A stretch of 64,000 nt of DNA, from positions 13,858,687 to 13,922,686 of the forward strand of contig NW_025062475.1 of NCBI RefSeq assembly GCF_000002995.4, given 5' to 3'. How positions within the stretch are numbered: the stretch's first letter is position 1; every line of letters starts with the position of its first letter. A model generated the notes under the pieces. That model was not told the DNA's origin, ran no database searches, and saw only the letters and a program-made list of their open reading frames with translations. This DNA is from Brugia malayi. Its lineage: Eukaryota; Nematoda; Chromadorea; Rhabditida; Onchocercidae. Made by a program: the position numbers and the translations under genes. Shown here piece by piece: positions 3,153 to 46,380 of this stretch.

Positions 3153-5484
3153 TTATTTACCGACATCATTCTCGGATTGTAATTTCATTTCATATCTCAT
3201 CAACTGCTGCATGAAACCCGGATTTGGGTTAACTGAAAACAAAACAAGTTTGAATATTGAGTTAATATAAAAGAAACCAGAAATTACTTGAGTTTCATTT
3301 GTAAAATATTGCATAATATATCTTTCCAGTTCAAAATAGAAAGACAAAATTTCTCAAATCGAAATTTATTTTCAACAACTTTCCGGTAAGGAAAAATTAT
3401 GAATAAAGCTAATCACTTTAATTATCAAAAAAGAATAAATCACTCTCCACATAACTACCATAAGAAGATTCTTCATATGTGAAAAGATTAGATTTACATG
3501 TAAAAATCAATGAATGAAACGGTCGTTCATGTTACTAAAATATTAATGATTCTAAGTTTCAAACAGTCTTTTTCGCTCAATATCTGTTATAATTGGAAAG
3601 ATGAAATTAAGTTACCTTTTCTAATTGTATTGACGTGTTCCAGAGCTTCACGTAACGTCATTTTGTTATATCGCATTATGTATGATAAAACAATAGTGGG
3701 TGATCGAGAGACACCAGCATTACAATGTACAAGAACCTGGAAAATCTTCTTAAGAAACTTAAGCAAAGCTAATTAATTACCGCTCTAAAAGCTCTATTAG
3801 TTTAAAAAAAAAAAGACATATTACTTCGTTAATGATTACAATATTCAATGTTAGAATCAACATGCTTCCTAAACAAAATCTTTTAAAAAAAAAACAACTA
3901 CTTACCTAAGAAGCAGAATATTCATAATTTTAAATTTAAGCTGTTGCTTGAATCACAATCATATTGTTATTTAAAACTAACCCACATATTAACCCACATT
4001 TTCAAGAAAAAAAAAAAAATAAATAAATAAAATAACTCACATTTCCACCATTTTCTACTGCATTCTTCATGAATTCATGACATTTATCAAAATATTGCTC
4101 CATATTACTCCACGGTAAATCCAGCACATCAAATGTAAGATATTTAATTGCACCCAAAAAAATATTCTCTACACCAGTTGCACAGTTGATAATATGTGTA
4201 ACATTATGTGCCATGAGGATGTCATAATCGTGTGCTACATCCTGACTTCCTATAATGATACCAATTAATTTATCATTGTAGAAAAGTATAGTGCTATAAT
4301 GAAAATTAAGCAGCAAATTTTGTGGACGAATAATAACAAAAACAACGATAGTAATGTAAATAAAATAGTAATAAGAGGTAAAAAGTTTTTTAATCCTCGA
4401 TCTTAAACAAAAATAAACTTTTTTAATTGAGTGAAATGAAGATCGGCAAACTTCAGCGACATACATGTAAGATGCCTATTAACTGAAACAATACTTCATG
4501 TCTTTCCTACTTCTGTCTTCACCATTCATTTATTTCCATTTATCCATTAGGAAGAGAATTTTTTGTTATTTCTTAGATAGCAAGAGAGAGAGAGAGAGAA
4601 TGTAATAATGTTTTAAAACCTCCACCAGACATACAATAGACTAAGCAAAACTACGCCAACAATAATTATAATAATAGTACAGTACCTTTCAAATGATTTT
4701 TGTCAATTTTTGCTCAAATATTAGTATTAAACTCTACCGAATGAATGAAAATTACAAGGAATAATATTCTAGATTGTTGTCCCTACCAAGGTAAATTCCT
4801 TTCGCCACATTCGCCATCTGTAGATCAGGTTTTAAATCCACTATATAACCCAAAGCTTGCCGATATAATCGGTTTTTCATCTGTCGATTTGAAATATGAC
4901 TTGTAGAATATGCTTTCTGTGAATCGTCCAAACCACTTTCCTTTTTGAAAGTAACTTCAAGCTCTTGCACCTCTTTTTCGCTACCACTATTATCAGTTTG
5001 ACCTCTCTCATCACCTGTACACACAAAATCACCTCCACTTGAACGTTTTTCTTTCACTACTGTACCATCTTCCATTGTTACTCTGAAAATATATAAATAA
5101 CACAAAAAAAAAAATGCCTGTAAATAAGGTACGATTAACAAAACGAATACTAAGCAAATACATAATTTAATTTTGTACAATAGCGCTCCGACTTCACCAA
5201 TAAATAAAACCGCCAAAGCCAAGCCAACAAATGATTAAAATAATTTGAAAGAGAATGGTTCGATAATTAAATAATTTGAATTACTCAAATTTTTCGAAAA
5301 AAAAAAACTCATATCAGTGTCAAATTGTTTTCATAATCATTAAGAATTCGATAATTTCCTTTACTAAAAACTATATTGTTTAAGATAAACTTATGACATG
5401 ATAAAACAAGAAATGAGAAATTTACGTAGTTTCAACAGCTCGCAAATTTTCTCGTGCTTTACGTATCTTCTCTAGTATAGACAT
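3153..5484 (-). CDS. DUSP19: DUSP19-like dual-specificity protein phosphatase
   Basis: Five exons on the minus strand (5426-5484, 4787-5082, 4041-4249, 3616-3736, 3153-3232) join in frame to 254 residues. The N-terminus (MSILEKIRKARENLR) matches the start of DUSP19-type proteins, followed by a longer Ser/Glu-rich linker. The catalytic domain starts at about residue 100 (YIVDLKPDLQ, then GSQDVAHD). The likely general acid is Asp162 (VLDLPWSN). The active-site loop is HCNAGVSRS, with Cys193 and Arg199. A conserved C-terminal helix follows (NPGFMQQLMRYE). Such enzymes remove phosphate from Tyr and Ser/Thr and are linked to MAPK/JNK signalling. The stop codon overlaps a possible donor (GTCG/GTAAAT), so a further 3' exon is conceivable. 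A TTTCAG acceptor 41 bases upstream of the start, at 5526, fits spliced-leader trans-splicing. All catalytic residues are present, so the gene looks functional. Confidence 0.92.
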
Positions 5485-20320: not shown

Positions 20321-20483
20321 AAACTTACCTGGCTGGGAGGGTCTCGCGATCAACAAGGCGGGACCTCCACGCTGAGGCTTGGCCATTGCACTCTGGGTCG
20401 GGTTGACGCGTGTGGCTATCCCGAGTTGGGATCAGCCAACAGCACAATTTTTGCGTTTGGGGTTGCGTACGCGCTCCCCCGCT
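20321..20483 (+). ncRNA. U1: U1 spliceosomal snRNA
   Basis: The 5' end AAACTTACCTGG is the U1 sequence that pairs with 5' splice sites. Loop I has GATCAACAAGG (20348-20358), the U1-70K-type binding loop. Loop II has CATTGCACT (20384-20392), the U1A-type loop. The Sm site is AATTTTTG (20446-20453), followed by the 3' terminal GC-rich hairpin ending near 20483. The length, about 163 bases, is right for U1. It closely resembles nematode U1 in the TTTGCGTTTGGGGTTGCG region. All hallmark elements are intact, so it is probably a functional gene rather than a decayed copy. Open frames on both strands here are shadows. Confidence 0.96.
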
Positions 20484-22131: not shown

Positions 22132-25100
22132 CTGTATAGGTGCAATACTACATCGTATGAATCGTCGTGGATAGGCTTTCTGCGCTCGCACATAAACAAT
22201 TCTCTGTTGAGGACTCATATCAGCAACGTTTTTCATTATTGCAAAATGAAGACCGTGTGAAATTCGATACACAACATATTCCCAGTTCATATGCCATCGT
22301 TCAGCTGTTTGCATTTTCATTGGTTGAAGAATCGATTCATGCGATAGTCGGACTACTGTACGATGCCTTATCTGAAGTCGAACTACTGTACGATGCCTTG
22401 TCTGAAGTCGAACTACTGTATGGTGTTTTATCTGAAGTCGAATTACTGTACGATGCTTTATCTAAAGTCGAACTACTGTACGATGCCTTGTCTGAAGTCG
22501 AACTACTGTACGATGCTTTATCTAAAGTCGAACTACTGTACGATGCCTTATCTGAAGTAGGAGTACTGTACGATGCTTTATCTGAAGTCAAATTATATTT
22601 AGAACTGTGATCAAATTCGTTAAATAGTTTCGAATGTTTAATTTATCCTTTTTTGGAGTTGGCTTTTTGATCGAATAAGAGAGAACGTTTACATTCCTCT
22701 ATATTTAGAAGTAACTAATGTTATTATTGTAAATATTATTTCAAAATATTTTGCATATTTTCGTGTAAGCTTAAATTTACATAAATTCAAATTCATTCGA
22801 ATTTGAATTCAAATTAATAGATTCTAAAATAATGTCAAACTGAAATACATTTTTTTGAATTTTCTCAACAAAGCATACAAGCATATGAGAATTATTAGAG
22901 ATATTAAGAAGCTTGAAATTTTTTAAGTTGAAAATTTAAGATTTTTGTATTAACTATCAGAGTGCTAATACTTCTGGTTTAATATCATTTAGCAATAAAA
23001 CATTTATTTGCTTAATGTATTCAAGACTAGAATATCTACTAATTAATTACCTGTACTTCTTTACTCGGCGAAATGACATGCCAATGAATTGTATATATTG
23101 GTGAGGAACGAAGTTGAACATACGTTGAACGACCACTTAGGGAGGCAAAAATGTACCGTACAGGACATTCATCTGTTTCCAGAGATGGCACCAAGCGAAA
23201 CATTGATTGTGTCACCTATAATAGTGAATGACAAAAATAATTTTATTAAGAAAAGGAATGTCGCGAATTATAATTTCGCGAAAACATTTATCTAAAATAA
23301 TAATAATAATAATAAAAAATAATAATTTTTAATAAAAATTAATTAATCATTTTTAGTTTCATAGTATAATAAACTAACCTCTTATGATTTATTACTCATG
23401 AGATTTTGAGTAAAATTTATTGTAAACACTTCCAATTCTTAACGCACATGATTTTATCTCAGACACGTCCAATCCTCACTTATATAAATTCAACTCTAAT
23501 AAACAAAATGTTTCATAGTCATTATTGTCGACTACTTTCTGTTAACCAATATCAATTCCTCCGATCTTCCTTATTATAAGTTTCTTCTCTCCTTTTACTG
23601 CTCTGTTTATTAATACTACGTTTGCAAAAAATAAATTAATCCTTCTACTGTATTGCAAACAATTTGAATATCAACCAACAAACCCTTCACGACAACAAAA
23701 ATTTATTGGTGCCACGAGCCGGGAACATGTCAAGCCACATTATTGCGAGCTTTCAACCGGCAAAGGAAAGGTTAGTCAGTCTTCTTAAAGAAGTAAATCA
23801 ACTGGAGATCAAATCTCCAGAACCAAGTATGACAATAGATGAAAAAGAAGATTTTTATATAATAAGAAAAAGAGTGTTAGAAGATAAACTTCGAAGAATC
23901 CAATTATGCGTAACTACGCTTGAATCTATCAACGATAAATGGTTCACATATACTCAACAAATCGTCACGATGAAAAGAAGAGAAGAAGAGGAAGAAAAAT
24001 ACAAAACAGTAACAGAAGGTGACCAAGGAATATTTCAATTATTACACGAAGGAAAGGAAGCGGTAATAACACTGACAATGCACAAGGATGAAGTCGACCA
24101 AAACTTAAAGCAACTCTCAAAGGAGTTGACGAACAAACAAACAAAAGAAGAGGCAAAATTTACTCCTTCTTCAAATATTAATGTAAATCTTCCTCATTTA
24201 TCGCTCCCCACTTTCGATGGAGACCCTAGACAATGGCAACAATTTTGGAGCAGTTTTAACGCAGCAGTCCACACACAAATTACTTATACTCATGTCTTAA
24301 AAGAAGGGCTCTACAAGGAATATCTGATGATATAGCTCCAGAGAATTATGAAGTCATCAGAAAACTGCTTAATGAAAAATATGGCGATCACTCAATAGTA
24401 ATAACATTACTATGCAACGAACTCCAATCAATTAAACGAAATGAAAGAGAATGGATTGGAACAATTGAAAATATAGAACGAGTATACGCCAGTTAGAAGC
24501 TTTAGGAGAAAGCCTCGAACATTCAAATATTGAAATCTTGATCGAGATTAATCTTGAAATCTTGATCGATGATCGAGATTACCATTATGGATATTACATA
24601 AAATATATAAACATAAGAAGAAGGACATGCCTTGGTCAATTCTCAAACTAAGAAACTTTTTAACAAGTTTAGTTAATGTGAATGAACAGATTAGAAACTG
24701 TCAACATTCACTCACTCAACTCAATATTAAATCTACAACTACCAAACCGGAACAAAAACAACGATACAATCCCGACTCGTGGCACCAATAAATTTTTGTT
24801 GTCGTGAAGGGTTTGTTGGTTGATATTCGAATTGTTTGCAATACAGTAGAAGGATTAATAAGCCTTTATTTTTCGCAAACGTAGTATTAATAAACAGAGC
24901 AGTAAAAGGAGAGAAGAAACTTATAATAAGGAAGATCGGAGGAATTGATATTGGTTAACAGAAAGTAGTCGACAATAATGACAATGAAACATTTTGTTTA
25001 TTAGAGTTGAATTTATATATGTGAGGATTGGGCGTGTCTAAGATAAAATCATGTGAGTTAAGAATTGGAAGTGTTTACAATAAATTTTACTCAAAATCTC

Positions 25101-27648: not shown

Positions 27649-28443
27649 TAACTAATCTTTGCATTGCTCAAATTGTTAGAAAATCACATCAGACTTTCGA
27701 GATTCGAGCTGATAAGATTAAATAAATATTAAATCCATCATTATCTTCCGCATAATTTATCAAAGTTTCTCGAGAAATATCGCATTTGAGCAAAATTAAA
27801 ATTACATGAATAAATGCAAGATGCAAGAACAGTTAGCATGCATTACATTCACACTGCATGTGCAGTTAGCAGTCTGCATGCATTACATACACTTTGCATG
27901 TGCAGTTAGCAGTCTGCATGCATTACATGCACGTTGCATGTGCAGTTAGCAGTTAGCATGCATTACATTCACACTGCATGTGCAGTTAGCAGTTAGCATG
28001 CATTACATGCACACTGCATGTTGGTAAATATATTTTTAATGCAAGATGCAAGAACAGTTAGCATGCATTACATTCACACTGCATGTGCAGTTAGCAGTTA
28101 GCATGCATTACATTCACACTGATATCAAACAAATTAATATTAACTAATCTTTGCATTGCTCAAATTGTTAGAAAATCACATCAGACTTTCGAGATTCGAG
28201 CTGATAAGATTAAATAAATATTAAATCCATCATTATCTTCCGCATAATTTATCAAAGTTTCTCGAGAAATATCGCATTTGAGCAAAATTAAAATTACATG
28301 AATAAATGCAAGATGCAAGAACAGTTAGCATGCATTACATTCACACTGCATGTGCAGTTAGCAGTTAGCATGCATTACATGCACGTTGCATGTGCAGCTA
28401 GCAGTTAGCATGCATTACATGCACACTGCATGTTGGTAAATAT
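27649..28443. repeat. 490-bp tandem duplication with TGCATGCATTACATGCAC minisatellite
   Basis: The sequence from TAACTAATCTTTGCATTGCT occurs twice, at 27649 and 28139. Each copy ends in several units of roughly 33-40 bp built on GTTAGCATGCATTACATTCA. Only one copy exists in the right arm, so this duplication arose after the arms formed, or was lost on one side. Confidence 0.88.
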
Positions 28444-28582
28444 ATTTTTGCCCTAATCATTCTTTCTTATCACTAATTATAATCTGTCTATCATTGTCAT
28501 CACCATGATATTAAAGTGAAGAAAAATACGATATAAACGGATAATTTGCAGCTACTCCTTGGTTTGTTTAACCCTTCTCAAC

Positions 28583-28697
28583 GAATGATTGGCCCGATTG
28601 TTAGGTAAGTATGTTCGTCCGTATCTAAGAGTAGCAAAATTTCTGGCGGTTATCCGCTCCATCATTTTTTGGGAAAGTTGCCCTCAACGGGCAACAG
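28583..28697 (+). ncRNA. Candidate snRNA / spliced-leader-like RNA (module a)
   Basis: The layout matches a spliced-leader or SmY-class RNA. A splice-donor-like TTAG/GTAAGT falls after 28604. Hairpin I pairs TTAG (28601-28604) with CTAA (28625-28628) and GTATG (28609-28613) with CGTAT (28620-28624), so the donor is within a stem. Hairpin II is GCGG-TTAT-CCGC (28646-28657). The Sm-like site is ATTTTTTGG (28664-28672). Hairpin III is GTTGCCC-TCAAC-GGGCAAC (28677-28695). If the RNA begins near 28583 the part before the donor is 22 bases, the usual length of a nematode leader; that start is inferred. It does not match the SL1 leader. No expression evidence; it could also be an SmY-like RNA or a structured repeat. 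Confidence 0.45.
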
Positions 28698-29879
28698 AAT
28701 GTTTCGATCAATTATGCCAACATTGAATCTAAAGTAGACTCATTCTTTAGACCTATAAATCTCATTTTTTAATAAATTTGACAAATTTCTAATTAGTAAT
28801 TGCAATAATGAATTACCTGAAAATATTGTAAACATTATTTTCTGCAACAAACCTTCCACACTATTTAGCCAACCGATTCACCGCTCTGCAAGAAGAATTC
28901 ATTCCAAGAAATATCCAGAAAATATGGCGAAAAATTACGAAAAGAGTATAAATTTGGAAATATGGTTTTAATTCAATAAATTAAGAACGAACGATTGGAT
29001 GGTTTAAAATTTTCACTTGTAATGTTATATTTTACTAAATAATTAATTTGTTTATTTACTGTAAAGTAATTAGATTGTAAAGCTATTAAATCATTTTGAT
29101 AAAGCAAAAATTATAAATATTGGATAGAAATGTTCAAAATATTTGTTCAAAGTACCATTCCGATGCATTCAATTTGCTGTTTGCTCAAAGCTATAAGATC
29201 ATTTCGGTAAAATACAAATTATTTTTTACTCGCTCAATGTTGCACTGATCATAAACACTATTATCGAATTATCAAAATCAAATGATAATATCAATGATAA
29301 ATACTATTTTAGTTCTAAGAACATTTGTTTTCAATGAAAAATAAACAAGTGATTAAGTCTGTTTTATAAAATTAGATAAATAAGTCGAGATTCCATATGA
29401 CTACTTAATAACTGTACAATTGATATGCAGTTTAATAGATTTCGAGATTTTGATAGGAATTGAGGTGAAAAATTAAATAAGAGGTAAAAAAATGTGATAA
29501 AAAATAAATTTAAGAGAGGTATATAAAAACACTTTTTTTTTCATCTTTTTCTGTCTTTTTTCCTAATACTACTGAAACAAAAGCAATATTAGATGGAATA
29601 GTTAGAAATTTTGATAATTATTAATAATTCAAAGAAATCAGATCAACAAAATGAGCTGATAATTTGAAATTGTTCAAATAGCAGCACTCAATTCTTCATC
29701 ATTTCCTGTATTAATTTGCAATAGAAGATTTACTGACAAAACTGAAACTGCAAGATGAGAATGCATCGTGCAGTCAGCACAGTTAGCGTGCATTGAAAGT
29801 GCATGAAATATTTTTCCTTTATCTCTCTGATCATCATTGATTAGTAACTTGTCTATTACTCACATCTTTTTCAAAATAA

Positions 29880-30055
29880 GATTTGGGAGAATTTGCGGGG
29901 GGGGGGGCAACATTCAACCTTTAAATGGTTATCTGGGTTATTTGTCACTTTGTTAGTGACAACTCTTACCTGCAGTCAGTATAATGTGGCACTTGTCATG
30001 TCATTTTTTGGGTCGTCGTTGTTTAAAAGCGACAGTAATATGTCAACATTGAAAA
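29880..30055 (+). repeat. snRNA-like module copy b
   Basis: Diverged copy: a possible TGGC-ACTT-GTCA hairpin, ATTTTTTGG at 30003-30011, then a GTCG...CGAC hairpin (30012-30033) and the conserved trailing word CAACATTGA. Mirrored as module f in the other arm. Confidence 0.6.
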
Positions 30056-31079
30056 GATCAATTGTTTAAAATTTTTTTTTTATAAATTTTATCATTTCTA
30101 AGTATTATAAAGTGAAATTTTTGTGGATTTTTTGCATTAATTTTAAAAGTGACATCACTAAAATGTGGGCAGGTCAGATCGGATGATTTGCCTACATATC
30201 TGATGAAAATGGATTCATAGGAAAAATTTCAAACAAATTCAAAATTCGTTTATAATATTAATTAATTTTAATTTTTAACACTGAAAAAACATATTTTAGT
30301 AAAAGCTTATAGTCTAATTAATGGGAAGTAATGTTAGCCAGAATTGTTGAAAAATTTTTTGCATCAGTGAAAACTTTCAATTAATTAATTTCAATACAAA
30401 GTTTTATGTAATGAATGATCAAATTAATATCTTACATCCATTTTTTTTTTTTTTTTGAAATCATATATAATCTCTTAAGAGTATTAGAAAGTGAGAAAGA
30501 AAGGTGCATACTTCAAAGACAAATATTTTTTCTTATATTTTCTACTTACCAATCCGTTCATTACTTACATCACTAACAATTGAATATAAATGACTTCTAG
30601 GAAGAAATTGATTATTCCCGGGAAGCAAATTAAAAGTGATAATGGGTGATTACATGGATATCAGTTAGCTTGATTTTTCCTTCGTTAATTTGAAATGATA
30701 AGCGTTTATTTTTTGCACTTATCACTGCAAGATGACACACTGCTAGCAACGGCATATAGTTTTCATTGATGTTATTTACGACCAATCCAAAATTGAGCAA
30801 ACAGCAAAATGACCTTATATATATTTCAATGAAAACCAATGATTCATGATTTAGAAGGAGAAAGCTTAGATGATATTCAGGTTTGCAATAGGTAATGTAT
30901 TGACAGAATTGAAACTGCATGAATAAATGCAAGATGAGAATGCATCGTGCAGTCAGCAGTCGGCATGCATTGAAAGTGCATAAAATATTTTTCCTTTATC
31001 TCTCTGATCATCATTGATCAGTAACTTGGCTATTACTTACATCTTTTTCAAGCTTATAAAAGGTCGAAGCGAATTTTTA

Positions 31080-31290
31080 AATGACTGGACCCCGGTGTTA
31101 CTACCTGTCTGGCTTGTTTGTAATGTAGTATTGATTGATTGGTTTGATTTGATTGTTGATTGTATGAGTTTGTCTGTTTCCATAGGTAGTAACCGATGGT
31201 CATGTGACACTGATGTGTTATGTTATTTTTTGGAAAGTCGTTTTTTTAAAAGCGACAATTGTTTTCAATGTTGATTTTTAAATTTTATCA
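31080..31290 (+). repeat. snRNA-like module copy c
   Basis: Hairpin ACAC-TGAT-GTGT (31207-31218), ATTTTTTGG (31225-31233), hairpin GTCG...CGAC (31237-31256). Stem II differs from copies a and e but stays paired. Confidence 0.6.
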
Positions 31291-32489: not shown

Positions 32490-32770
32490 CATTAATTGAA
32501 AGTGCATAAAATATTTTTCTTTTGTCTTTCTGATTATCACTGATTAGTAATCTGTCTACCACTCACATCTTTCTCATCTAAAGTTGAAGCAAATTTTGAC
32601 TGAAGAAGGAAAGACTTCGCATTTGCTACCCCTTTGGGTTGTTCTGTCGTGATTATATGGGCTTGACCGTTTCGTTTGGTAGTAATTGTTGAAATAACAG
32701 TTATGTTATATTATTTTTTGGGTAGTCGTCGCCTATTTACCGACGCACTATAAATTAACATTGATGAATT
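32490..32770 (+). repeat. snRNA-like module copy d
   Basis: AACA-GTTA-TGTT hairpin, ATTTTTTGG (32713-32721), hairpin CGTCG...CGACG (32727-32745), then AACATTGA. The upstream segment AAAGTGCATAAAATATTTTT is shared with the other copies. Confidence 0.6.
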
Positions 32771-33239
32771 TGAATATCAAAATTTAACTGATTTTCGACC
32801 AATTTGATGATTTCCTGACTAATCACTGTATAAATCTATCAATCACTTGAAAATAAATATGATAAATAATTTTTTTTGTTAAAATATTTCTTTTAAAATG
32901 AAGCATGGAATTATAGTTATAATTTGCAAAGATTTCATTATTGCGTTAATTGATTTTCGCTTAATCTATAAAAAGAATTCACTATGTAACTGTTTCTCTT
33001 ATTTTATCTGACTGCAACTATTAATGCATTAGTCTCGACAATCTTAGTCTAGAGAATGCTAATTGAGGTCACAGCCGCACCGCTAGTATATGTAGTTCAT
33101 TTAAATGAATGATTGTTTCGATTATTATTAGATAAATTGGTATATATATGTATTGTATCGCAGAATCTTAAAGTTAATATCAGAAATGTATAAAAATTTA
33201 AATTAGAATAACTTAGAAATGATATAATATAAGAAATCA

Positions 33240-33560
33240 TGAAGACAGTTATTGTTTCCAATGTTAATTTATATTGTCGCCCTTAAACAGACGACTTCTC
33301 CAAAAAATAACATAACAGATAACTGTCACTTGACAAGTATTACTACCAATGGAAACGGACAAAATAAACAATCAAACCAATCATTCAACACTACATGACA
33401 AACAAGCCAGACAGGTAGTAATTAGTTACTGTTTGGTCACTAAAGCTAAAGTAAAGGGTCGCTTCGACCTTTTATCTTAGCTTGAAAAAGATGTGAGTAA
33501 TAGACAAGTTACTAATCAATGATGATCAGAGAGATAAAGGAAAAATATTTCATGCACTTT
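33240..33560 (-). repeat. snRNA-like module copy e
   Basis: On the minus strand: hairpin ACAG-TTAT-CTGT (33315-33326), ATTTTTTGG (33300-33308), hairpin closed by GTCG...CGAC (33276-33295). It aligns with module a through GAATGATTGG...GATTGTT. Confidence 0.6.
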
Positions 33561-34589
33561 CAATGCTGTACGAGGCAATTTTATAAGCTTGAAAAAGATG
33601 TAAGTAATAGCCAAGTTACTGATCAATGATGATCAGAGAGATAAAGGAAAAATATTTTATGCACTTTCAATGCATGCCGACTGCTGACTGCACGATGCAT
33701 TCTCATCTTGCATTTATTCATGCAGTTTCAATTCTGTCAATACATTACCTATTGCAAACCTGAATATCATCTAAGCTTTCTCCTTCTAAATCATGAATCA
33801 TTGGTTTTCATTGAAATATATATAAGGTCATTTTGCTGTTTGCTCAATTTTGGATTGGTCGTAAATAACATCAATGAAAACTATATGTCGTTGCTAGCAG
33901 TGTGTCATCTTGCAGTGATAAGTGCAAAAAATAAACGCTTATCACTTCAAATTAAAGAAGGAAAAATCAAGCTAACTGATATCCATGTAATCACCCATTA
34001 TCACTTGTAATTTGCTTCCCGGGAATAATCAATTTCTTCCTAGAAGTCATTTATATTCAATTGTTAGTGATGTAAGTAATGAACGGATTGGTAAGTAGAA
34101 AATATAAGAAAAAATATTTGTCTTTGAAGTATGCACCTTTCTTTCTCACTTTCTAATACTCTTAAGAGATTATATATGATTTCAAAAAAAAAAATGGATG
34201 TAAGATATTAATTTGATCATTCATTACATAAAACTTTGTATTGAAATTAATTAATTGAAAGTTTTCACTGATGCAAAAAATTTTTCAACAATTCTGGCTA
34301 ACATTACTTCCCATTAATTAGACTATAAGCTTTTACTAAAATATGTTTTTTCAGTGTTAAAAATTAAAATTAATTAATATTATAAACGAATTTTGAATTT
34401 GTTTGAAATTTTTCCTATGAATCCATTTTCATCAGATATGTAGGCAAATCATCCGATCTGACCTGCCCACATTTTAGTGATGTCACTTTTAAAATTAATG
34501 CAAAAAATCCACAAAAATTTCACTTTATAATACTTAGAAATGATAAAATTTATAAAAAAAAAAAATTTTAAACAATTGATCTTTTCCAT

Positions 34590-34760
34590 GTTGACATATT
34601 ACTGTCGCTTTTAAACAACGGCGACCCAAAAAATGACATGACAAGTGCCACATTATACTGACTGCAGGTAAGAGTTGTCACTAACAAAGTGACAAATAAC
34701 CCAGATAACCATTTAAAGGTTGAATGTTGCCCCCCCAAATTCTCCCAAATCTTATTTTGA
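34590..34760 (-). repeat. snRNA-like module copy f (mirror of b)
   Basis: Near-exact reverse complement of 29880-30055, including the Sm-like site and hairpin. The G run of copy b is shorter here. Confidence 0.6.
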
Positions 34761-35937
34761 AAAAGATGTGAGTAATAGACAAGTTACTAATCAATGATGA
34801 TCAGAGAGATAAAGGAAAAATATTTCATGCACTTTCAATGCACGCTAACTGTGCTGACTGCACGATGCATTCTCATCTTGCAGTTTCAGTTTTGTCAGTA
34901 AATCTTCTATTGCAAATTAATACAGGAAATGATGAAGAATTGAGTGCTGCTATTTGAACAATTTCAAATTATCAGCTCATTTTGTTGATCTGATTTCTTT
35001 GAATTATTAATAATTATCAAAATTTCTAACTATTCCATCTAATATTGCTTTTGTTTCAGTAGTATTAGGAAAAAAGACAGAAAAAGATGAAAAAAAAAGT
35101 GTTTTTATATACCTCTCTTAAATTTATTTTTTATCACATTTTTTTACCTCTTATTTAATTTTTCACCTCAATTCCTATCAAAATCTCGAAACCTGTTAAA
35201 CTGCATATCAATTGTACAGCTATTAAGTAGTCATATGGAATCTCGACTTATTTATCTAATTTTATAAAACAGACTTAATCACTTGTTTATTTTTCATTGA
35301 AAACAAATGTTCTTAGAACTAAAATAGTATTTATCATTGATATTATCATTTGATTTTGATAATTCGATAATAGTGTTTATGATCAGTGCAACATTGAGCG
35401 AGTAAAAAATAATTTGTATTTTACCGAAATGATCTTATAGCTTTGAGCAAACAGCAAATTGAATGCATCGGAATGGTACTTTGAACAAATATTTTGAACA
35501 TTTCTATCCAATATTTATAATTTTTGCTTTATCAAAATGATTTAATTGCTTTACAATCTAATTACTTTACAGTAAATAAACAAATTAATTATTTAGTAAA
35601 ATATAACATTACAAGTGAAAATTTTAAACCATCCAATCGTTCGTTCTTAATTTATTGAATTAAAACCATATTTCCAAATTTATACTCTTTTCGTAATTTT
35701 TCGCCATATTTTCTGGATATTTCTTGGAATGAATTCTTCTTGCAGAGCGGTGAATCGGTTGGCTAAATAGTGTGGAAGGTTTGTTGCAGAAAATAATGTT
35801 TACAATATTTTCAGGTAATTCATTATTGCAATTACTAATTAGAAATTTGTCAAATTTATTAAAAAATGAGATTTATAGGTCTAAAGAATGAGTCTACTTT
35901 AGATTCAATGTTGGCATAATTGATCGAAACATTCTGT

Positions 35938-36048
35938 TGCCCGTTGAGGGCAACTTTCCCAAAAAATGATGGAGCGGATAACCGCCAGAAATTTTGCTAC
36001 TCTTAGATACGGACGAACATACTTACCTAACAATCGGGCCAATCATTC
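35938..36048 (-). ncRNA. Candidate snRNA / spliced-leader-like RNA (module g, mirror of a)
   Basis: Exact reverse complement of module a over the whole core, extending to GGTTTGTTTAACCC at about 36070. All three hairpins, the donor-like AG/GTAAGT and ATTTTTTGG are kept. Two identical copies could reflect function or simply the recent inverted duplication. Confidence 0.42.
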
Positions 36049-36541
36049 GTTGAGAAGGGTTAAACAAACCAAGGAGTAGCTGCAAATTATCCGTTTATAT
36101 CGTATTTTTCTTCACTTTAATATCATGGTGATGACAATGATAGACAGATTATAATTAGTGATAAGAAAGAATGATTAGGGCAAAAATATATTTACCAACA
36201 TGCAGTGTGCATGTAATGCATGCTAACTGCTAACTGCACATGCAACGTGCATGTAATGCATGCAGACTGCTAACTGCACATGCAGTGTGAATGTAATGCA
36301 TGCTAACTGTTCTTGCATCTTGCATTTATTCATGTAATTTTAATTTTGCTCAAATGCGATATTTCTCGAGAAACTTTGATAAATTATGCGGAAGATAATG
36401 ATGGATTTAATATTTATTTAATCTTATCAGCTCGAATCTCGAAAGTCTGATGTGATTTTCTAACAATTTGAGCAATGCAAAGATTAGTTATTAATTTCAG
36501 TTTTAAATAGATTTCATTTTATTGTCAGTTAGTTTAATGCG

Positions 36542-39600: not shown

Positions 39601-41143
39601 AGAAGTGTTTGACAGGAAATCTCAGCGCTCCGTCAATGATTGCTGCATTTAATTTTTAATAGGCAATAGAACATCACATACAGAAGATATTTCGACCGAA
39701 TTTTTTTCCTAAAAATTTTACTTTCTTTGTAGAAATATTTAAAATATGAGAAAATAAACAAAGATGAATTCTTGTAATAACTGACCAAGAGATAGCTTTA
39801 TCTGATTACTTGTCTAAATGAGATCGAAAGAATTTCAGTTTCTGCTGCATCATCATTGAATTTCATAAGCCAGATCGAATAATTGCTTGAATAGCTTCAC
39901 GGATTCATACAAAGTCTGGCTGATTTGAGAGAATATCTATTTGTCTGGAACGAATTCAATTGATCCTTTCGATAAATTTTCACAAAAGAATATTAAATAA
40001 TTATGAGTAAGCTGAAGAACATTAGATAAGGTTTGTTGGCTATGAAGTTTCTGAAAATCCTGATTCTTTTCAGTAATATTAACAGAAATCAAGAAATCAG
40101 ATTAGCTATATAAGGATGATTTCGAGATTGTGATATGATAAGTGGCATATATTTCAGTCATTAATATTACCGTTACTGTCATAAATTGAAAGACAAAAAA
40201 AGAAATATGTACCCATTTAAAATTTTATTAAAATTTTGTTAGTAGTAAAAATAATTTACTGACAATGACGGCAATAATAAAGGTTGAAAAGAATATAGGC
40301 ATCTTGAATATTAAATAGACAAATGGAAATGGGTAAGGCAACATGGAAAAAGCAAAGTATATTCAAAATTTCTTGCTTTCTTAGATATACTAATATTTCA
40401 AAATTTAGAATTGAGATAACATAGGAATATCATAGGCAAGTAACAAATAATAGCTGAATTAAGAAATAAAAAATCAATGTATTAATAATTATCAGCGGAT
40501 TTAAAAGTAATTTAAGTTGCTTTCAGCATAACAGTGAATACTTGGTTGCATATTTGGTCTAAAATAAAAATTGATAGTAGCAGACTCACCGGGATAATTG
40601 CTAATACCGAAATAAGTAAAACTCCACGCAGAATCATTTTGGACTACAAACCATAAGCGAAATTAATTATTGAAATCGTTGAACGCTTCTCACCATATGA
40701 ACAGCTTGCAGCTAAGCACATCATAATGCCTAAATTCGAAACCCAACAATATTTGAATATCAATTCTTATATGCTGGAATACGGACCAACAAAAATCAAC
40801 AATAAATAAGAGGTTAGAAATGCTTCAAACATTGAGTGGTTTTATTTTCGATCTAACTCTAAAAGAATGCTGAAAAAGAGAAAGAGAGAAAAAAGCTTTT
40901 TTTGTATAGAAGAGTGCTCATATAGATTACTTAGTTATACAGATTACTTGACAGTCTGTGTAGATCGTTGTCAGAGCTCTCATAAGTCATAACTCTCTCT
41001 CTAAGGATCAAACGAATGATAGAATCATCATTGATGTATTTGCATATTTGCACTTAACCCTTTTCCTATGATGTTCTTTTCTATCGCATTATTATTATTT
41101 TTTGTTTAATTAATGAACTTTGACTAATTATTGCTTATTTCAG
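39601..41143. other. Intergenic, no gene seen
   Basis: AT-rich sequence without supported features. It ends at TTTCAG (41143), a probable spliced-leader acceptor 13 bases before the zinc-finger gene start codon. Confidence 0.5.
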
Positions 41144-46029: not shown

Positions 46030-46380
46030 CAATTAATTTTTTCAATATTGATATATGCTGTCACTTTTAAATAAAACGACTTTCCCAAAAAATAACATAA
46101 CAGATAACTTTCACACAACAAATGTTTACTACCGATGGAAACGAACAAACTCACACAATCAACAATCAAACCAATCATTCATTACGACACGACAAACAAG
46201 CCAAACAGGTAGTAATCATTTATTTGGCTATCGTAAACTAAATTCTCTTCGATCTTCTATCTTAGCATGGAAAAGCTGTGAGTATTAGATAGGTTACTGA
46301 ATTTTATGCACTTTCAATGCATGTTAACTGCTGACTGCATGATGCACTCTCATGTTGCACTTATTCATGCAGTTTCAGTT
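46030..46380 (-). repeat. snRNA-like module copy h, outside the palindrome
   Basis: On the minus strand: ATTTTTTGG at 46085-46093, a terminal hairpin starting GTCGTTTT (46060-46080), GAATGATTGG upstream, and the shared flank AAAGTGCATAAAA...GCATGAATAAGTGCAACATG. It shows the family is dispersed, not confined to the palindrome. Confidence 0.65.

Follow-up and report, generated by a model that had tools for sequence, protein, structure and literature searches.

What kind of small RNA, if any, is encoded at positions 28544-28697 on the plus strand of this 64,000-nucleotide stretch of Brugia malayi DNA (the whole stretch analysed, hereafter the window)? An earlier note had suggested a spliced-leader or SmY-like snRNA, and the features that it described in the sequence are genuine: a donor-like TTAG/GTAAGT, the Sm-like site ATTTTTTGG, predicted hairpins and a 7-bp terminal stem. 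It saw a real feature but framed it too narrowly, as the candidate belongs to a diverged family of loci. The reading that we tentatively favor, and hold to fall slightly short of an even chance, is that the candidate is a diverged member of an undescribed small RNA gene family that resembles the Sm class and is clustered at this locus.

Anatomy of the element and the surrounding palindrome

The Sm-like site of the candidate (28664-28672, plus strand, as are all parts of the element) has the same sequence in the other family loci. Hairpin P2 (GGCGG-TTAT-CCGCT, 28645-28658; GACAG-TTAT-CTGTT and similar in relatives) lies on its 5' side. On its 3' side lies the terminal hairpin P3 (GTTGCCC-TCAAC-GGGCAAC, 28677-28695), whose letters and predicted fold give a perfect 7-bp stem, GTTGCCC/GGGCAAC, with arms at 28677-28683 and 28689-28695. 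A closing stem, P1, is predicted by folding between GCTACTC (28551-28557) and GAGTAGC (28629-28635), and the donor-like TTAG/GTAAGT (TTAGGTAAGT, 28601-28610) is strong in the candidate and its exact copy only. The stretch at 28439-28568 resembles the upstream stretch of the relative p32 (68% over 138 positions). Folded from 28583, the candidate is unremarkable (z = -1.5; the SmY RNA of this worm gives -0.4 and SL1 -4.1); folded from 28562 it reaches z = -2.8, but the Sm-like site is then paired.

An Sm-like site followed by a stem of at least 7 bp with at least four G-C pairs occurs three times in the window itself; 60 first-order Markov simulations average 0.017 per window. The three matches are the candidate, its exact copy and a minus-strand site at 33308 (m33), later recognized as a relative. 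The pair AGGTAAG ... TTTTTGG taken alone is at chance level in the genome, with 40 matches vs. 55 for the reversed control.

A second exact copy, which the earlier note had placed at 35938-36048, does exist, although that span is too short: the copy extends over 35934-36087 on the minus strand and is identical at 154 of 154 bases. The match is longer than had been noted because the copy sits in a palindrome whose outer arms (28138-29901 and 34730-36493) are 99% complementary, and it therefore provides no independent evidence of conservation. Pieces of the full arms (28138-31061 and 33579-36493) are 98-100% alike out to 31061 and 33579, and p31 and m33, the members just inside them, are alike at about 80% only. 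The outer arms look as if they had been homogenized by gene conversion. A 40-base tandem repeat of the GTTAGCATGCATTACATGCAC type adjoins the candidate at 27790-28489. An arrangement resembling the palindrome of the window is seen elsewhere in the genome, where U2 and U5 genes stand in divergent pairs that are repeated in inverted orientation (loci L015-L029, at C138:13267503-13290398 and 583750-584558).

A family of related loci

The family comprises at least 14 loci. Eight lie in the window: the candidate, its exact copy, p29 (29972-30062), p31 (31189-31282) and p32 (32679-32774) on the plus strand, and m33 (33248-33343), m34 (34575-34665, the palindrome partner of p29) and m46 (46032-46129) on the minus strand. 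Four are found elsewhere on contig C135 (two in L073/L074, plus L075 and L077) and two on C139 (L076 and L078). We take C135 to be the chromosome of the window and C139 (24.94 Mb) to be the X chromosome of Brugia malayi, which is given as 24.9 Mb in a passage of PMC7181701. The earlier note had named the copy number of an inert repeat as a point that would speak against it; with 14 loci found, as a lower bound, the candidate is not a high-copy repeat.

Members were gathered by similarity, except m33, which came from the site-plus-hairpin scan, and L078, which came from a motif pattern; both are BLAST matches as well. The m33 site prompted a sensitive comparison, in which the window proved to contain relatives of the candidate, alike at 66.7% over 126 positions and 63.3% over 120 positions. 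BLAST searches of the genome with m46 and with the X member L076 each returned at least eight matches, the query included. The motif pattern had 81 genome matches vs. 56 in the control; 11 of the 81 were known members, and one of the 20 fetched from the other 70 proved to be a member (L078). A covariance model built from 12 of the 14 loci (R1) detects p29, p31, p32, m33, m34 and m46, and gives 64 bits at 28628-28727 for the candidate, itself among its building rows. In the rest of the window it gives nothing better than E 0.32, and the count of 14 excludes a weak hit close to L077 (28 bits, E 0.003).

Hairpin P2 and the exact ATTTTTTGG are common to the family, as is the second hairpin except in the decayed L078. 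The site is identical in all 12 aligned members, in the exact copy and in L078. A 3' hairpin follows it in 11 of 12 minimum-energy folds (the exception is m46, and m34 has an open loop); it is absent in L078. P3 is irregular in p32, L077 and L076, which, like L078 without it, look decayed. The closing stem P1 is predicted in a subfamily of six (candidate, m46, m33, p31, L073a and p32; in m33 by the centroid fold only), with the sequence GCTACTC/GAGTAGC in the candidate and TTACTACC/GGTAGTAA in its other members. Other 5' domains are present in p29/m34, L074, L075, L076 and, in part, L077.

Mean pairwise identity was profiled over 12 rows, with gaps counted as differences, the L078 row shortened and positions numbered from the A of ATTTTTTGG. 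It reaches its maximum of 0.80 at the Sm-like site, with 0.59-0.71 over P2 and 0.62-0.65 over P3; it is 0.23-0.34 at -100 to -51, 0.43-0.57 at -130 to -91 and 0.09-0.20 around -160 to -121. Yet the core is not alone in being raised: an upstream block at -220 to -191 has 0.64-0.65, and the 3' flank 0.42-0.66 out to +99.

That the conserved unit exceeds the core at both ends is what would be expected if the element were a structured piece of a longer transcript (a lncRNA, a UTR or a mobile element), its T-rich site and hairpins serving processing or the binding of a non-Sm protein. We consider this a distinctly improbable reading. In the X copies, likeness does not reach beyond the core and what lies close to it, spanning at most about 220 nt in L076, which retains the whole core, and 174 nt in L078, which retains P2 and the site. 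None of eight open frames tried with Pfam overlaps a family core; seven gave no match, and that at 4002-4475 on the minus strand resembles a dual-specificity phosphatase, weakly and at a score under the curated cut-off. An open frame at 23640-24335 looks by eye like a fragment of a Pao-type retroelement, and Pfam gave no match for it.

The C135 members, for their part, share several hundred bases of flanking sequence, a pattern of ordinary segmental duplication. Together with the palindrome and the tandem repeats around the candidate, and with the decayed members L078, p32, L077 and L076, this points to an old, locally duplicated repeat or to snRNA-derived pseudogenes, in which segmental duplication spread one ancestral Sm-class gene and its flanks, leaving few copies alive or none. 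This seems to us somewhat unlikely. Identity is uneven, being highest at the site and hairpins; the 9-base site is unchanged in the loci found; and the candidate, the most diverged copy in the window and the longest branch, keeps its pairing through paired changes.

The paired changes were examined in an alignment of 12 members, for hairpins P2 and P3 that we had defined from these same sequences. Over the two hairpins, 90.6% of cells are paired and six of 14 pairs change on both sides. None of 500 column shuffles was as high on paired cells or double-changed pairs, and 262 of 500 were so for pair types; versions of the structure slid along the alignment were 30-59% paired. A tree-aware null of our own design, which preserves the tree and each column's number of changes, equaled or exceeded the observed pairing in one of 2000 runs, the double-changed pairs in 14 and the double-changed cells in two. 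The corresponding counts, out of 2000, were 1, 94 and 32 without the near-duplicate m34; 6, 9 and 21 with a tree from the longer unit; and 0, 160 and 18 for P2 alone. P3 alone is no better than this null (422, 584 and 802 of 2000). When both m34 and the candidate were removed, the counts rose to 76 for pairing, 1448 for double-changed pairs and 310 for double-changed cells, and such weak covariation without the candidate again suits an explanation by duplicated, dead copies. P1 was assessed in six sequences, where 214 of 500 shuffles did as well, and the arm of the candidate is misplaced in the alignment. RNAalifold on its own finds P2 only in the aligned members. These tests thus back a structural constraint for P2, where compensatory changes give support mainly through the candidate itself, and do not establish one for P3 or P1. 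The existence of a family, its invariant site, the identity maximum at that site and the paired changes in P2 make an Sm-class RNA family the best explanation.

The splice donor and known RNA classes

The consensus of a splice donor is MAG/GTRAGT. GTRAGT was sought within the 125 bases before the site in 13 members, and matches were scored against the nine positions of the consensus. Three of the 13 members contain it, 1.63 being expected from composition, and the remaining ten have none. The donor of the candidate, at -59 (TAGGTAAGT), agrees at 8 of 9 positions. Those of m46 (GTGAGT at -61, TGTGTGAGT) and L073a (GTAAGT at -61, TGTGTAAGT) agree at 6 of 9, have no AG before the GT and sit in a GT-rich stretch within a few bases of the candidate's place; a score of 6 is also reached elsewhere in the members. 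That these donors nearly coincide in position counts against a non-leader reading, and the absence of a donor in 10 of 13 members counts for it.

We judge it very improbable that the candidate, alone or with its subfamily, acts as a spliced-leader RNA whose 5'-domain donor gives up the bases before it. The TTAG/GTAAGT is paired in the predicted fold, and the Sm site and terminal hairpin follow in the order of an SL RNA. Thirty of the 40 donor-plus-site genome matches, with their sequences, were compared for a 7-bp stem with at least four G-C pairs after the site and for TTTGCAGC before the donor; the combination is found in the two copies of the candidate only, the stems of L054 and L064 having 7 bp with three G-C pairs and L045 a shorter TTTGCTG upstream. 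Against these points stand the chance level of donor-plus-site pairs, the ten members without a donor and the silence of the Rfam SL models. SL1, moreover, is named as the Brugia leader in passages of three papers (PMC1657053; PMC12410068; PMC7181701), one of which also reports Brugia SL1 variants without a matching gene, termed SL1-like (PMC1657053). The start at 28583 with a 22-base leader, as proposed in the earlier note, finds no comparative support across the family. With a donor strong in the candidate only and a shared upstream 10-mer unlike the promoter element (see below), a spliced leader is poorly supported. The stretch 28562-28583 (GGTTT...AACCC), which we took to resemble the SL2 consensus, was considered and set aside; no donor directly follows it.

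Comparison with covariance models, as the earlier note had proposed, yielded, for the candidate, m33 and m46, no Rfam hit at E up to 10 among the SL, SmY, U and Y RNA families. The SmY model, run on the whole genome, listed none of the family loci among the 56 of 16844 candidates scored, and conversely the family model missed the SmY RNA of this worm. Applied to 42 sources that included SmY, SL1, U1, U2, U4, U5 and U6 loci, the family model found none of those RNAs significant; its best non-family match (21 bits, E 0.1) falls between SL1 genes in their array, and SL1 RNA itself scores 18 bits (E 0.5).

The SmY-like identification survives for layout, not for membership. As in SmY RNA (Rfam RF01844), an Sm-type site is predicted here between two hairpins. 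The worm has, however, a single SmY locus above the cut-off for SmY (L009, C136:7583828-7583906), which carries a promoter-like element and differs from the family, the sequence of the first hairpin included. Nematode SL1 RNA (Rfam RF00198) likewise has an Sm site followed by a hairpin, but its genes lie in large arrays, unlike the family loci, and the family has no conserved donor or leader and an unrelated 5' domain. In the X member L076, TTTTGGAACGTCCT is shared with the SL1 RNA of the worm, the 3' context agreeing over 14 bases, and the letters that follow the site are similar in U4 and U5; we claim no significance for this likeness, which fits a possible snRNA origin. U1, U2, U4 and U5, but not U6, carry an Sm site and a terminal hairpin, as the family does; the family differs from all five snRNAs in having no Rfam match and no clear copy of the promoter element. 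SmX of Ascaris is reportedly a second Sm-bound RNA of obscure role, found with SmY in that related worm, and would resemble the family in this respect; the open-licence literature searched yielded no paper on SmX and no mention of a family like the present one.

Two other origins were considered and rejected. The UUAUC loop of P2, presumably reminiscent of Y RNA or stem-bulge RNA, has no Rfam match to go with it and is absent in six of the 12 aligned members (p31, p29, m34, p32, L074 and L075). As to a foreign origin, the one match to a 20-mer of hairpin I lay within an apparent reading frame of a bacterial contig assembled from a metagenome, about 0.5 match being expected by chance on our estimate; a 19-mer matched no viral contig.

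Proposed function and promoter

Judged by predicted folds, the family would offer what an Sm-type site requires, a single-stranded A-U(4-6)-G(G) beside a 3' hairpin. The putative transcript would begin with a 5' domain that varies among members, followed by a short hairpin, the unpaired site for Sm proteins, AUUUUUUGG, and a hairpin on the 3' side. Sm proteins would assemble as a ring on AUUUUUUGG, to give a stable nuclear RNP. These worms use spliced-leader trans-splicing, which their human host does not, and to our knowledge few of its RNAs have been described. SmY RNA associates with the proteins SNA-3 and SUT-1, and the SmY snRNP was recently reported to be essential for nematode viability (PMC11229312). 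By analogy with SmY, the RNA may work with the trans-splicing machinery of this SL1-using worm and not donate a leader. In its full form, this proposal is of a new nematode Sm-class snRNA family, distinct from SmY and SL RNAs, with another type of promoter and acting as an snRNP in filarial SL1 trans-splicing, and as such we regard it as unlikely. If true, it could add a new component of the Sm class to the trans-splicing machinery known from filarial parasites.

Six U1 loci in the genome exceed the cut-off, the U1 snRNA gene of the window (20321-20482, 125 bits) being one of them, and the earlier note had suggested that a 10-mer shared with the upstream region of that gene may mark a common proximal element. 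The 10-mer, ATTTGCAGCT, occurs three times in the window vs. 0.24 expected, once upstream of U1 and twice at the duplicated element; three of its bases fall in the 5' arm of the predicted stem P1. Known snRNA genes of this genome have upstream a 20-base element, which starts at -54 to -56 in U1, U2 and U4, at -65 in U6 and at -43/-44 in U5. A matrix was made from 12 sites of this genome, with the U1 locus L038 left out; it is moderately strong only (leave-one-out scores -0.3 to 26.7), and SmY, outside the training set, scores 12.6. A common promoter with U1 was rejected: the 10-mer corresponds to the 3' half only of the element, and its place at the candidate scores 2.1, below the 3.7 that marks the 95% level of random 60-nt stretches, or, with another pseudocount, -1.4, which ranks 385th in the window.

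Over 330 nt in each of 11 members, the best matrix scores are 2.1-10.0, against a random median of 1.8 and a 95% level of 9.3. The median is exceeded in every one of the 11, but these members are related to one another, and their best sites differ in position, several of them falling in a shared upstream repeat. We read this as the usual snRNA promoter element not being found in the family, and the lack of a clear element in these members again speaks for duplicated, dead copies. For an Sm-class RNA family, the sole promoter candidate is perhaps the conserved upstream block, and transcription may start from there, about 190-220 bases before the site. The best matrix match of the window (18.4) lies at 40840 on the minus strand; it was rejected as an snRNA gene, Rfam giving nothing better than E 0.41, and by eye it lies before a protein start, possibly that of a signal-peptide gene rather than an RNA gene.
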